The notes beneath the pieces are model-generated. The model ran no database searches. It was given only the letters and a program-made list of their open reading frames with translations, and was not told the origin of the DNA. A program made the position numbers and the translations under genes. DNA of 64,000 bases from Paenibacillus bovis (lineage in GTDB: Bacteria > Bacillota > Bacilli > Paenibacillales > Paenibacillaceae). This document shows positions 12,414 through 18,108 of this stretch, piece after piece. Every line of letters begins with the position of its first letter. Position 1 is the stretch's first letter. The DNA lies in assembly GCF_001421015.2 (NCBI RefSeq), contig NZ_CP021170.1, positions 98,923-162,922 on the forward strand, in the 5' to 3' direction.

Positions 12414-13499
12414 ATGAGATTCAATATTCATTTTCTATCGTTTTATGTGCTGCAGACCGAAGGGAAAGAAGGACAAACCTATAAGCAATCGAAGCATTAT
12501 CAAACCCTGGATGAGCAAGAATATGAAGAAAGTGAAGTGAAAAAGTTTATTCATGCGGAGTTTGCCCGGATCGCAAAGCGCAAAGTAGAAAAGAATCCGA
12601 CAAATGAAGAAGCCCCTACCAAACTCGGTACCTTTGTCGTTGAGCCAGGCCATGAGCTGAGCACCAATCCGAATTACAATCTGCTGATGCGGCTGCGTAC
12701 CGCGGATCAGAAGGAGGATTTCCAGCAGGAAGCGGATGAGCTGGTGCGCAGCTACTTGGAAACGGCAGCTGTTCGTGGCGGCGCCATGATTATTGCTCAA
12801 GCTGGCATGGATACACATTTTGATGATCCGTTTATTTTTGTCATCAAATGCGACTTTGAACAGCAGATCGCCCGCATTTCGGATGAGAAAAGCCTGATCA
12901 GTGAGGTGGAAATGGCGATCAGTTCCCGGAATATCAAATCGATTCAATATCCGCATATGCCGGAAGAAGGAATGATTGAAGAATGGGAACTCAAAGTCCA
13001 CCAGTCGTCCCATGCTCGCTATTTTGAAGACTTCCTGAAGTTTGTGACCTATGAGCAATCGATTCCTGAAATGGTTACGGCGCGGGTTATGAATGATGTT
13101 CAAAACTACTTAGAAGAAAAATGGCCCGATGAAGATAGTGAAGAGCGGCAGCAGGAGGAGCATGATCTGGAGCTGTGGGCTGCCAGTAGTAAGCGAGATC
13201 TGCAGGAAAAATGGGATCCGCAGCAAGTGATGCATGCTGCAGAGCGGATTGTAGAGATCAAACCTGAAATCGAGATCCGCTTAAAGCTGGGAGATACCGT
13301 TATTAAAGGATTACTCGCCGATTTTGGTCATCGATTGCACATTACCAAGCTGGGAAATCAGTATGCGGTCGTCATCGAAGGGGATGCCTTTACGTTTGAA
13401 AAAGGATTTTTGCCGGTTGAGTTGCTGCAGCCGGACTCTTTTGAAAAGGTCTCCCAGCAGCTGATCGAAAAAGCAATGCAATTGTCCGATACCAACTGA
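12414..13499 (+). CDS. DUF3900-like cytoplasmic protein
   Basis: A 361-residue soluble protein. From memory, its N-terminus (FLSFYVLQTEG...HYQTLDEQEYEESE), the 'GTFVVEPGHEL' stretch and 'QYPHMPEEGMIEEWELK' match the uncharacterised DUF3900 family of Bacilli at about full length. No catalytic motif is evident and no signal peptide or membrane helix is seen. It starts with an ATG behind AAAGGAGCC. Finding a normally chromosomal house protein on accessory DNA is notable but its role is unknown. Confidence 0.6.
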   Translation: MRFNIHFLSFYVLQTEGKEGQTYKQSKHYQTLDEQEYEESEVKKFIHAEFARIAKRKVEKNPTNEEAPTKLGTFVVEPGHELSTNPNYNLLMRLRTADQKEDFQQEADELVRSYLETAAVRGGAMIIAQAGMDTHFDDPFIFVIKCDFEQQIARISDEKSLISEVEMAISSRNIKSIQYPHMPEEGMIEEWELKVHQSSHARYFEDFLKFVTYEQSIPEMVTARVMNDVQNYLEEKWPDEDSEERQQEEHDLELWAASSKRDLQEKWDPQQVMHAAERIVEIKPEIEIRLKLGDTVIKGLLADFGHRLHITKLGNQYAVVIEGDAFTFEKGFLPVELLQPDSFEKVSQQLIEKAMQLSDTN

Positions 13500-14060: not shown

Positions 14061-14610
14061 GACGAATCCAAAATTATATAGTAAAAACAAGTCCACTTTG
14101 GACCACCCCATCATGAGAAATAAGGTCGATGATCTGCATAGAATCTTCGACCTTATATCATTCATATACCGCGTCTTTTTAACTTCTTATTCGTTATAGA
14201 AAACCATATCCTCTGCTATTTTCTTTACATTATTCTAATAAATTTAAAAAATGAAACAAAATGAAACGTTTTGAACTTTCGATGAAACAAATCGTTGACT
14301 GTATCCTGATATCTTCATAGTATCGGTCGTGAATTCAAAGACATCGTTATTCGCCGTTTCGACCGACCATACAAGAGAAAGGAGCCGTAAAGCGCAGCGA
14401 TAGTAATAGAATAAATACAAGTGTTTTGCCAAGTTTGATACGGATCAAAAAGATCCCCTAATGCTACATAGCATTTGCCGGACATGTCTAACCATGTCGC
14501 AGGCCCATACTACTACGCCGGTCCGGATCGGATCGGTGAAACGCAGCTGATCGGTTCAGCACCGTTTTACAGTGTCCATCCGGACGGACAGACCGGGAGA
14601 GAAAAATAGA
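14061..14610 (+). promoter_or_regulatory. promoter and long hairpin-rich leader of the methyltransferase gene
   Basis: This 550-bp gap has no gene. A hairpin (arms 14120-14129/14147-14156) follows the previous gene. A promoter-like TTGACT at 14295-14300 and TAGTAT at 14318-14323 are 17 bp apart. Downstream lies a run of small palindromes, including ATGCTACATAGCAT, GACATG...CATGTC and GCTGA...TCAGC, before the methyltransferase RBS at about 14595. Repeated ATGAAAC words lie near 14250-14290. A structured 5' leader is inferred. Confidence 0.4.
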
Positions 14611-15840
14611 ATGACATGTAAACCAATGCGGAAATTAAGTCTTTTTAGCGGTATCGGCGGCCTCGATCTGGCTGCCAAATTAGCAGGAATGGAAACTGTC
14701 GCTTTTTGTGAGCGCGAAGCTTATCCATGCCGGGTTCTGATGAACCGATTCCCCGGCACCCCTATTTATGATGATGTGCGCACCTTAACGGTAGACAAAC
14801 TCAAGGAGGATGGAATCATTGCCGAAAACCAACCGATCGACCTTATCTCTGCCGGATACCCCTGCCAGCCATTCAGCGCTGCCGGGAAGCGAAGAGGCGA
14901 GAAAGATGACCGTCACCTCTGGCCGGAAGTTGCTCGGCTCTTATACGAGATCCGGCCCACTTGGTTTATTGGTGAGAACGTTGCTGGACACGTCAGTTTG
15001 GGGCTCGACACTGTGTTATCTGATCTGGCGGCAATCGGCTACGAAGCAGAACCATTCATTGTTCCGGCTTGTGCCGTCGGTGCGACGAACCGCCGAGATC
15101 GCGTCTTTATTGTCGCCTATACCGATATCCCTGCAGAATGGTCACTCGACGCCGGAAAACCGCGCACCCCACTCCTTGGAGACGGAAAGCCAAAGCTTGA
15201 GCAGCTCTTTACCGAGCAGTTCGGCAACCACATTGGATGGTCCCGCGTTGTTGACGAGTACTGCAGTACCTCGGATGTGGGCTACGCCGCAGAGCCGGGA
15301 TTACCGGACCGGGGACAAGCCGGGTTCCTCCCGGCAGCTGCGCAAGCAAACGCAGGGGTGGAGCAGCAATTTGAACGACCAGGTCAAAATGTGGCCGACG
15401 CCGCTGGCTTCCCAAGTCACAGCCAGAACCTCTATCCAGATCAACGAACGTGGACGCAGAGTGAGCCCGGGGGGACAAACGCGTGGACTGGACTTGCCAA
15501 CGACAGTGCTGCTGCAGACGCCGAAATCCGAACATCTGCCGAAGGGGGCTTCACCACAGCTGAACCCGGAATGGGTCGAATTCTCGATGGGTTTTCCGCC
15601 TGGCTGGACAACTATCCATGGCCAGCAGGAATGGGATCAGCTCAGCACGACTGGGAACCTCCCCGTACAGCCGTAAATGTGCCAGACCGGGTAGCCCGGC
15701 TTAAAGCGCTGGGTAATGCCGTGAATCCGATTCAAGCGTTCCCCTTCTTTTATGTGATCCGGCAGATTCATGATTACATGCATCCGGATCGCCTAGCTGC
15801 TCGCAGCAGTCAGCAGCTGCTGATCCAGGAGGGGGCCTAA
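14611..15840 (+). CDS. C5 DNA cytosine methyltransferase
   Basis: A 409-residue enzyme predicted to transfer a methyl group from S-adenosylmethionine to C5 of cytosine in DNA. Family motifs in order: motif I LSLFSGIGGLDLA at the N-terminus, the catalytic motif IV SAGYPCQPFSAAGKRRG with the nucleophilic Cys, the ENV motif (GENVAGH), a CAVGATNRRDRVFIVA motif VIII, and the C-terminal RLKALGNAVNP motif X. The variable middle (about residues 205-330) is low in recognisable features and is also open in another frame. ATG 14611 follows GGGAGAG; an in-frame GTG at 14572 is less likely. No cognate restriction gene is adjacent. TAATG overlap with the next gene. Confidence 0.9.
   Translation: MTCKPMRKLSLFSGIGGLDLAAKLAGMETVAFCEREAYPCRVLMNRFPGTPIYDDVRTLTVDKLKEDGIIAENQPIDLISAGYPCQPFSAAGKRRGEKDDRHLWPEVARLLYEIRPTWFIGENVAGHVSLGLDTVLSDLAAIGYEAEPFIVPACAVGATNRRDRVFIVAYTDIPAEWSLDAGKPRTPLLGDGKPKLEQLFTEQFGNHIGWSRVVDEYCSTSDVGYAAEPGLPDRGQAGFLPAAAQANAGVEQQFERPGQNVADAAGFPSHSQNLYPDQRTWTQSEPGGTNAWTGLANDSAAADAEIRTSAEGGFTTAEPGMGRILDGFSAWLDNYPWPAGMGSAQHDWEPPRTAVNVPDRVARLKALGNAVNPIQAFPFFYVIRQIHDYMHPDRLAARSSQQLLIQEGA
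14810..15676 (+). CDS. candidate overprinted protein inside the methyltransferase gene
   Basis: A second frame stays open for 288 codons across the last two-thirds of the methyltransferase gene. Its translation is not noise. It carries, in order, LIWRQSATKQNHSLFRLVPS, RMWATPQSRDY, KMWPTPLASQ and LNPEWVEFSMGFPPGWT, the motif order I recall for a phage-associated family found next to C5 methyltransferases. The adjacent gene at 15840 encodes the same C-terminal motifs in its own frame. AAGGAGG touches the ATG at 14810, so the true start may be a later one (for example 14906). It may be expressed, or be a fossil frame; sequence alone cannot decide. Confidence 0.4.
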   Translation: MESLPKTNRSTLSLPDTPASHSALPGSEEARKMTVTSGRKLLGSYTRSGPLGLLVRTLLDTSVWGSTLCYLIWRQSATKQNHSLFRLVPSVRRTAEIASLLSPIPISLQNGHSTPENRAPHSLETESQSLSSSLPSSSATTLDGPALLTSTAVPRMWATPQSRDYRTGDKPGSSRQLRKQTQGWSSNLNDQVKMWPTPLASQVTARTSIQINERGRRVSPGGQTRGLDLPTTVLLQTPKSEHLPKGASPQLNPEWVEFSMGFPPGWTTIHGQQEWDQLSTTGNLPVQP

Positions 15841-16241
15841 TGAATACAGAACTTCAGCAGCATGTGGCATCGATACGCAGCGCTCCCCTGCAGGCGCTGA
15901 GCTTTATTCTTCTTCAAACCAAGTTTAAGTGGTGCAAGGTCGGGTGGGTGTCCTGGGCACTCCGCCAGACGCCCGCTGCGCAGCCGCTTCTCAAGCTACA
16001 GGCCGCTGCCTTACCCAAAGCAGAGCGTGAAGTGGATTACTGGCCTACCCCTATGGCCAGCGGTCATCAGATTGTCGCGCCGCGGCGTGGCAAAGGGCAA
16101 ATAGTCACGCTATCGCAGCAGCTGGCTATTTATGAGCCCGATCATATTGGCGAAGTGATTAATCCCGCCTGGATCGAGTGCATGATGGGTTTTCCGGAAG
16201 GCTGGACGTCTTTAGATCCTCGCCTCTGTATTCAAGAATAA
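15840..16241 (+). CDS. WPTP/GFPxGWT-motif protein, methyltransferase companion
   Basis: A 133-residue protein whose start overlaps the methyltransferase stop (TAATG), implying translational coupling. Residues about 65-125 carry DYWPTPMASGHQ and, further on, VINPAWIECMMGFPEGWT. The same two motifs occur in the alternative frame inside the methyltransferase gene. The N-terminal half is basic and unrecognised. No enzymatic role is known to me; context suggests an accessory to DNA methylation. Confidence 0.7.
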   Translation: MNTELQQHVASIRSAPLQALSFILLQTKFKWCKVGWVSWALRQTPAAQPLLKLQAAALPKAEREVDYWPTPMASGHQIVAPRRGKGQIVTLSQQLAIYEPDHIGEVINPAWIECMMGFPEGWTSLDPRLCIQE

Positions 16242-17145: not shown

Positions 17146-18108
17146 ATGAAAATCATTCATGTATTTGAAAAAATCCCTACTATCCTGGGACCCAGCATTA
17201 TGTTGCTGGGCCCATCTTCATTGGACGAAAAGGTCACGGCTTGGCGGCAAGAAGCGATTCAGCATCTGCAAGCTACAGGGTTTGATGGCACGATTCTGAT
17301 CCCAGAGCCACGTAGTCGTGGATCGCATGTGGATTACCCACTGCACTTGGAATGGGTGCTGCAGGCTTGCCAGCAGGCGGATGTTCTACTCTTTTGGATT
17401 CCACGTCATTTGGTCCATATGCCCGCTCTAAAAACAAACGTGGAAGTGGGTATGTTCATCCGTTCCAACAAGTTTATGCTAGGAGCTCCGCCGGATGCGC
17501 AGAAGATGCATTATATCCGGACGCTGGCGGCCCATTATGGGCACTGCTGCTACGAGACCTTACCCGAACTCCTTCAGGCCGCACAGGTCCGCCTACAGGC
17601 ACTCTGGCAGCAGAGCAGCGTGCGAGGAATCCGCCAGCTGCGCCATGATGATGTTCCGCAGCTGGCCGCACTCTACGGCCAGCAGGAGGAAGGGCAGGTC
17701 TCTGCAGCGGATCTGGAGCAGGCGAGCCGGATGCTGCTTCAAAGCGAAGAGAAAGGAGATAGACTGATCGGTTACTTTCGGCAAGGGGAGCTGATCGGCT
17801 GTTTATCGATGCATTTCATGATGCAAGCCTTACCTGGTCAACCAGCTGAACGAAAAGCATACCTGAGCAGTGTCATCGTAGGGGGCGACTACCAGTTTCA
17901 GGGCATTGGCACCGAGCTGGTACAACATGCGCTGCAGCTGGCTGAACAGGCCGGAGCAACCGGTGTACAGGTCCAGGCAGTAGCTGGTAATCACGCGGTG
18001 CAGCGAATGCTGGATAAGAATGGATTCTTGATGGAGGATTTGAATTTTCATTTCCGTTTTGCTAAAGCAACCTGGCCGGCAAATAAGCCGGAAGTACAGC
18101 TGGTATGA
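17146..18108 (+). CDS. nucleoside deoxyribosyltransferase-like / GNAT acetyltransferase fusion
   Basis: A 320-residue two-domain protein. Residues 1-150 resemble the nucleoside 2-deoxyribosyltransferase-like family (Nuc_deoxyri_tr2): GPSSLDEKVTAWRQEAI, a FDGTILIPEPR strand, DVLLFWIPRHL and the TNVEVGMFI glutamate motif. Residues about 155-315 form a GNAT acetyltransferase with the acetyl-CoA loop YQFQGIGTELV. The first domain would act on a nucleotide or base glycosidic bond, the second would acetylate an unknown amine. The join is in one uninterrupted frame. CTGCAG is frequent here, as in the neighbouring backbone genes. Confidence 0.7.
   Translation: MKIIHVFEKIPTILGPSIMLLGPSSLDEKVTAWRQEAIQHLQATGFDGTILIPEPRSRGSHVDYPLHLEWVLQACQQADVLLFWIPRHLVHMPALKTNVEVGMFIRSNKFMLGAPPDAQKMHYIRTLAAHYGHCCYETLPELLQAAQVRLQALWQQSSVRGIRQLRHDDVPQLAALYGQQEEGQVSAADLEQASRMLLQSEEKGDRLIGYFRQGELIGCLSMHFMMQALPGQPAERKAYLSSVIVGGDYQFQGIGTELVQHALQLAEQAGATGVQVQAVAGNHAVQRMLDKNGFLMEDLNFHFRFAKATWPANKPEVQLV

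Follow-up and report, generated by a model that had tools for sequence, protein, structure and literature searches.

Lee, Kam and Shaw are said to have found in 1995 that the small-subunit gene of the methyltransferase M.EcoHK31I lies inside the large one, in another frame. In the multispecific C5 methyltransferases of Bacillus phages (SPR, phi3T type), several short recognition modules stand in the single frame of one protein. PMC3404938 places motifs I-VIII and motif X of M.EcoHK31I (YGGCCR) in the large subunit and motif IX in the small subunit, and assigns the predicted TRD to the large subunit, not to the one with motif IX. The same source describes M.AquI (CYCGRG) as a two-subunit C5 methyltransferase whose smaller subunit holds both IX and X.

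Here we describe a locus in Paenibacillus bovis, within a stretch of 64,000 nucleotides (the window), in which a C5 cytosine methyltransferase gene (alpha) contains a second open frame (beta1) and is followed by a free-standing relative of that frame (beta2). Likened by the described division of motifs, the alpha-beta1 pair divides them identically to M.EcoHK31I, with I-VIII and X in one protein and IX in the other, and to that extent the division has a precedent. The two differ in that the TRD is predicted in the large subunit of M.EcoHK31I, whereas the region between VIII and X of the window's alpha is modelled with low confidence and read as disordered, and in that the window has an additional free beta. 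M.AquI resembles six other loci of the family, whose beta includes both IX and X and whose alpha is cut short; the window, in contrast, keeps X in alpha and has beta1 wholly inside alpha. Like the SPR/phi3T-type enzymes, the locus has several short modules, but these belong to the overprinted subunit and have a putative role in specificity. Alpha and beta1 match phrog_363 and phrog_1008, respectively, by profile, although PHROGs holds these as separate families.

We consider it probable (about 0.8) that the locus encodes a C5 methyltransferase split by dual coding into a catalytic alpha and a recognition subunit, beta1, with beta2 as a further, free recognition subunit. At the level of sequence, the family combines two frames that both appear to be under purifying selection, a motif IX in beta and not in alpha, a motif X in either frame, and shuffled modules. 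In the open-licence literature, to the extent that its text was available, we found no report of dual coding in phage methyltransferases, its breadth, reciprocal selection, motif X exchange or module shuffling; earlier reports may exist.

A methyltransferase gene with a second gene in its +1 frame

Alpha lies on the forward strand, as do all features below, at 14611..15840 and comprises 409 aa from the ATG at 14611, a likelier start than the GTG at 14572 where the open frame begins. PF00145 matched it at 2.1e-35 over profile positions 1-162 of 324, which correspond to motifs I-VIII (14626..15123; residues 19-184 of P0001), with PCQ and ENV present and pLDDT mostly about 95. Motif IX is absent from alpha's own frame. 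A linker at 15154..15678, mostly of low confidence, overlies the recognition region and motif IX of beta1, and motif X (RLKALGNAVNP and the helix after it) follows at 15688..15780, with a pLDDT of about 95 at residues 371-390.

The second frame is in +1 phase to alpha and at its longest extends from an ATG at 14810 to 15676, or 288 codons (288 aa). Since this ATG abuts a perfect internal Shine-Dalgarno (SD) sequence, AAGGAGG (14803..14809), the TTG at 14819, 9 nt past it, is probably the start, giving a beta1 of 285 aa (14819..15676). Its N-terminal domain (VTSGRK..W.ST..YL.W..SAT...SLFRLVPS; 14912..15124; 82 bits with the beta HMM) is overprinted on motifs IV-VIII of alpha, where synonymous variation in alpha is reduced. 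Two modules follow, both delimited by module clustering: WATPQSRDY... (15278..15391), which belongs to the largest module cluster, and WPTPLASQV... (15392..15511). Motif IX, LNPEWVEFSMGFPPGWT, occupies 15560..15610, where the alpha frame reads EPGMGRILDGFSAWLD; the family profile of this stretch matches canonical motif IX.

Beta2 (15840..16241; 133 aa) begins at an ATG that overlaps the alpha stop (TAATG) and is preceded at a distance of 7 nt by the SD sequence AGGAGG (15827..15832). It consists of one WPTP module (16041) and a motif IX (16158-16208), and contains WPTPMASGH and NPAWIECMMGFPEGWT. An earlier note on this DNA had reported both the second frame of 288 codons with its protein-like motifs and the downstream gene at 15840 with its own, and we recovered both (the latter as an open frame of 133 codons).

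The genome has two contigs, and the window belongs to the second, of 162,922 bases. Between 34357 and 57214 it encodes an integrase, a Tn3-family transposase, ArsB, a heavy-metal P-type ATPase and a histidine kinase, as would suit a plasmid-like accessory replicon. Upstream of alpha, a DUF3900/DUF3898 gene (12414-13499) had no PHROG match; contig C1 has a second copy, 77% identical, and each of the 16 genomes of the genus that were searched had a match. Downstream, the protein encoded at 17146-18108 joins a nucleoside 2-deoxyribosyltransferase-like domain to a GNAT acetyltransferase and also matches phrog_1249. Judged by domain and PHROG matches, neither of these neighbours points to a structural or replication region of a phage.

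Beta-like frames overlap a methyltransferase gene across the family

Searched separately, as the earlier note had suggested, alpha matched phrog_363 in addition to PF00145, and beta1 matched phrog_1008 (2.3e-34, residues 1-274; 1.7e-9 for beta2) and 832 proteins at E<=1e-3. Both PHROGs are labelled 'DNA methyltransferase'. Loci were collected from four sources: 29 viral contigs matched by P0002, the best 80 of 348 viral matches to alignment A1, the best 80 of 330 matches in reference genomes, and at least 120 stretches found by a DNA pattern for motif IX alone. Record titles among the best 80 of the 330 reference matches name Bacillota, Alphaproteobacteria, Desulfobacteraceae, Acidobacteria, Chlorobiota and Rufibacter. 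A methyltransferase match was present in 310 loci, yielding 288 alpha entries, 253 of them distinct; 33 of these were dropped for want of a recognisable +1 motif IX (contig ends, early-ending alphas, divergent motifs), and the remaining 220 loci were reduced to 188 non-redundant ones at <85% nucleotide identity. Identical filtering of the 120 pattern stretches left 70 pattern-only loci.

A six-frame search of all loci with the beta profile returned 320 beta-like ORFs (281 distinct once duplicates were removed), 313 of which overlap a methyltransferase ORF in another frame. In an earlier, smaller set of the loci, beta was in +1 phase to the methyltransferase wherever matches to both frames were present. 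The other seven comprise five cut by contig ends, one in a locus with a frame change (L265) and beta2, which is the only clear free ORF among the 320. The picture was similar for the 80 pattern stretches that were classed: 71 have a +1 overlap with alpha open past IX, six are cut by contig ends, and one each has an overlap with alpha ending before IX, has the frame change (L265) or was classed as 'elsewhere' (L240). An early classification found both frames open in only 120/198 loci because its N-terminal pattern was too narrow. The earlier note had taken the motifs of beta for those of a phage protein family found next to such methyltransferases; with 313/320 overlapping, we reject a free-standing family of this kind, and beta looks instead like a missing part of the same enzyme. 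The note had also named two findings that would speak against its proposal: a lack of homologues outside methyltransferase loci, which is nearly what these counts show, and free substitution and stops in the second frame among relatives, which the shuffling and fourfold-site analyses below contradict.

The family is patchy: phrog_1008 was matched in 4/299 genomes of the phylum and a beta1 relative was found in 19/295 genomes of the family Paenibacillaceae, the window's own genome being counted in both cases, and plasmid records matched beta1 in three instances and alpha in 230. Annotation varies among phages, with Paenibacillus phage Leyra (gp61, gp62), Escherichia phage K1ind2 and Escherichia phage fTaEco03 having entries for both frames, and mycobacteriophages Rhynn and SG4 for alpha alone, over an open beta.

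Several individual records deserve mention. One Roseovarius MAG chromosome (OX638333.1) has five sites with equal match scores (L140-L144), perhaps a repeated prophage. A viral contig shared by L117 and L238 has two motif IX sites about 1 kb apart (827 and 1869), possibly from tandem beta-type genes. In L265 (8842-9805) alpha changes frame: its motif I part shares the frame of beta and the remainder is in another, through either a natural frameshift or an assembly error. Finally, phrog_26627 (71 residues, unknown function) matches beta's motif IX and may hold other free or cut beta pieces.

Both frames bear signs of purifying selection

Codon shuffling was used to ask how often each frame would stay open given the protein of the other. 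In the window, the beta stretch remained open in 0.5% of 200 alpha-synonymous shuffles. Beta was scored as open if it had no stop between motif IX and a point at least 75 codons upstream of where motif VIII ends. By this measure it was open in 187/188 non-redundant loci (alpha-synonymous shuffling predicts 7.5 among those 187) and in 70/70 pattern-only loci (4.87 expected); the third frame over this stretch was open in 0/188. The reciprocal held for alpha, which had no stop between motif VIII and the point where motif IX of beta ends in 185/188 loci (21.6 expected under beta-synonymous shuffling), with the third frame across that span open in 1/188.

Synonymous constraint over homologous loci, also proposed in the earlier note, pointed the same way. 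At fourfold sites of alpha, the third-base match between loci rose from 0.278 upstream of beta to 0.46 inside it, the constraint beginning at beta's start, whereas canonical methyltransferases gave 0.270 and 0.271, without extra constraint (n=27 of 30 fetched, all from the window's phylum; 26 were used in the tree below). Because many loci were fetched by beta similarity, this signal is inflated: the match inside beta was 0.58 to 0.65 among such loci, and part of the 0.46 is ascertainment. In the pattern-only loci the signal was weaker but present (0.299 vs 0.376 inside beta; 0/5000 column permutations reached it). Among non-sharing related pairs, with closeness judged outside beta, 81/103 had a difference of the same sign in all loci, but 23/34 in pattern-only loci; a variant that judged identity over both regions (76/84) was superseded by this one.

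Column entropy traced which frame dominates along the gene. At alpha codon positions 1/2/3 it was 1.0/0.82/1.75 before beta and 0.99/0.77/1.45 over motifs IV-VIII, then 1.73/1.16/1.20 over the WPTP motifs and 1.11/0.41/0.45 over motif IX (beta-frame anchors), and 0.69/0.34/1.43 over the alpha-dominated motif X (alpha-frame anchor), so that the dominant frame passes from alpha to beta and back to alpha. Locating WPTP and IX by beta-frame patterns favours beta, and X was located by an alpha-frame pattern; we repeated the measurement with alpha-frame anchors, using only codons outside the pattern. This gave 0.96/0.39/0.69 for IX (n=143), 1.67/1.43/1.47 for WPTP (n=137) and 1.05/0.69/1.86 for X (n=188). 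A stretch set by its distance upstream of X showed no beta lead (1.01/0.80/1.16, n=188), the spacing to IX being variable. The frame switch thus holds for motif IX, with a smaller contrast under alpha-frame anchors.

Start signals were also enriched. An SD sequence of at least 4 bases with an open beta start at the expected place was found in 98/188 loci (null 7.6%) and in 30/70 pattern-only loci (null 8.5%); 90/188 loci had no SD of at least 4 bases for beta.

With reservations about the entropy and about ascertainment, these comparisons argue that both frames of the overprinted pair are under purifying selection. Were the beta frame untranslated, its openness and apparent conservation would stem solely from conservation of the alpha protein. 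The N-terminal half of beta does lie over the most conserved part of alpha, so that likeness there is partly forced, and the synonymous signal is modest once beta-selected loci are removed; but such an origin would have to accommodate 187/188 and 70/70 open frames, 27 controls free of extra constraint, a motif IX stretch that is better conserved in the beta frame even with an alpha-frame anchor, and a free beta-like sequence at 15840. We regard an untranslated beta as very improbable. Chance, or a mere reflection of alpha conservation, is rejected by the shuffling, the controls and the pattern-only fourfold signal.

Motif IX lies in beta and motif X in either frame

Alpha has the motifs I-VIII and X and the M.HhaI-like fold (in the model) of a C5 methyltransferase. 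It lacks what a single-chain enzyme has, motif IX and a recognition domain in the same chain, and its Pfam match stops at residue 184. The missing motif is found in beta: the 25 columns around LNPxWVEWLMGFPxGWT align best with canonical methyltransferases exactly at motif IX (E 2.1e-4), with a score attained by 0/100 column permutations. In six loci alpha stops before IX, and both IX and X are encoded in the beta frame; this IX-X piece matches canonical IX-X co-linearly (E 2e-6; 0/60 permutations as high).

Motif X thus occurs in either frame. Of the 281 distinct beta ORFs, 252 have both a motif IX and an alpha partner, 21 have no recognised IX and eight have no alpha. Among the 252 pairs, X is in alpha in 240 and in beta, with alpha ending before IX, in the six; in three alpha ends before IX without X in beta, and in three no X was found. 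The alpha tail of the window is 57% identical to the beta tail of one of these loci (L061) over 58 aa, so the same peptide stands in alpha in the window and in beta in L061. In the alpha tree, a split with support 0.987 sets the 194 beta-type alphas apart from 26 controls, and nearest neighbours put the six loci in apparently four places. These results suggest that alpha stays open across beta chiefly in order to include X.

A single fused chain, made by ribosomes that shift +1 after motif VIII into beta and back again before X, would also yield the canonical order of VIII, recognition region, IX and X, and IX and X do share a frame in the six loci. Beta, however, frequently starts well before VIII behind an SD of its own and has a conserved N-terminal half, and alpha remains open across all of beta, which double shifting does not need; we hold a fused product to be most unlikely.

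The structure model of alpha agrees with a read-through that serves to reach X. Its M.HhaI-like catalytic domain and the helix of motif X are modelled confidently, most of 182-356 is not (pLDDT <50 at 182-194, 205-321 and 351-356), and the linker between VIII and X is predicted to be disordered. Alpha and beta would correspond to the large (catalytic) and the small domain of the enzyme. An AF2 model of a beta homologue alone was poor (pLDDT 60, pTM 0.24), and Foldseek gave no credible structural match for it. The whole-beta profile matched canonical enzymes weakly (E 0.018, probability 2.5%); Pfam had no match for beta, Pfam and NCBIfam had no useful one for the beta proteins with IX and X, and PDB sequence searches with beta gave no lead. 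Nor did the label 'Mte8'.

Beta could be a real protein with another function, for example a regulator, a DNA mimic or an anti-restriction protein whose gene overlaps that of the enzyme. Most of beta has no recognised fold and its modules are shuffled, both of which would suit such a role; against it, alpha has neither a motif IX nor a confidently folded recognition domain, and the conserved end of beta aligns with canonical motif IX and is joined by X in six loci. We consider another function very unlikely, and beta looks from its sequence like the missing part of the enzyme, comprising motif IX and a recognition region.

The earlier note had proposed that the beta family arose by overprinting the methyltransferase gene. 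A selected, overprinted family is what we find, although only the N-terminal half of beta would have been overprinted on ancestral methyltransferase sequence. Because the enzyme's own motif IX lies in the C-terminal half of beta, alpha looks like the newcomer there.

WPTP modules are shared among dissimilar enzymes

Downstream of motif VIII, beta is built of units that start with WPTP or a similar sequence and have a median length of 38 residues. We counted 336 units in the 188 loci, 14 of which have no recognised module. (Clusters 1 and 5 of a first module clustering look like N-domain pieces, and all counts are from a later analysis.) Eighteen unit clusters recur in four or more loci and account for 186 units; 13 of these clusters are followed by at least three different neighbours, and nine are found at three or more positions. 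The 188 loci show 142 different unit orders. Unit pairs at least 75% identical between loci number 218, of which 57 come from alphas of <60% identity and 15 from alphas of <50%. Since similar units occur in dissimilar alphas and next to varied neighbours, the units move between enzymes, and they are probably specificity cassettes.

Beta2 is a free relative of the C-terminal half of beta

In the six-frame search beta2 matched the beta HMM at E 6.8e-15, at residues 42-127; residues 1-66 had no significant match to the beta profile (0.3 bits). Its other frame held no alpha remnant, 24% of 300 shuffles scoring as high, and a duplication of the whole dual gene is rejected on these two grounds. A homologue search with beta2 (P0003) returned only itself, and it was absent from 15 other congeners. 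By its sequence, beta2 is a stand-alone piece made up of a recognition part and IX, and its start signal is strong. The earlier idea that the locus holds both an overprinted and a free copy is borne out in that beta2 is a free relative, but it matches the family's C-terminal half only and free copies are exceptional (one clear case in 320).

Discussion

From these patterns we infer that both proteins are translated, that alpha and beta form a complex and that the modules set its specificity. Alpha would be the large catalytic domain, with motifs I-VIII, a disordered tether and motif X. Beta1 would be initiated internally in the +1 frame from its own ribosome-binding site and would serve as the small domain, with an N-terminal part that possibly docks on alpha, a variable WPTP recognition region and motif IX. 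Together the two would form an active enzyme, with beta determining its target, and beta2, translationally coupled to the alpha stop, would give the same alpha another target.

As to how such an arrangement arose, we tentatively propose, at somewhat less than even odds, that a large clade of C5 methyltransferases in phages and bacteria began with a frame exchange, in which the recognition half of an ancestral single-chain enzyme became a separate subunit in the +1 frame and each protein came to overprint the other's territory. The result would be a combinatorial array of specificity cassettes of about 38 residues that has to remain open in both frames, and the liberated single-cassette beta of the window could retarget alpha.

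Long dual coding on the same strand is considered rare among bacteria and phages. In this family an entire clade seems to have it as a rule, both frames being selected and the labour clearly divided, and the family offers hundreds of natural replicates for measuring the co-evolution of two proteins on one DNA. The arrangement also accounts for the fact that in some phage records two overlapping ORFs are called 'DNA methyltransferase' while others list one. Phages may swap modules in the overprinted subunit to change their DNA targets and so escape restriction, and a prediction of such enzymes that considers only alpha would overlook the subunit by which the target is probably chosen.
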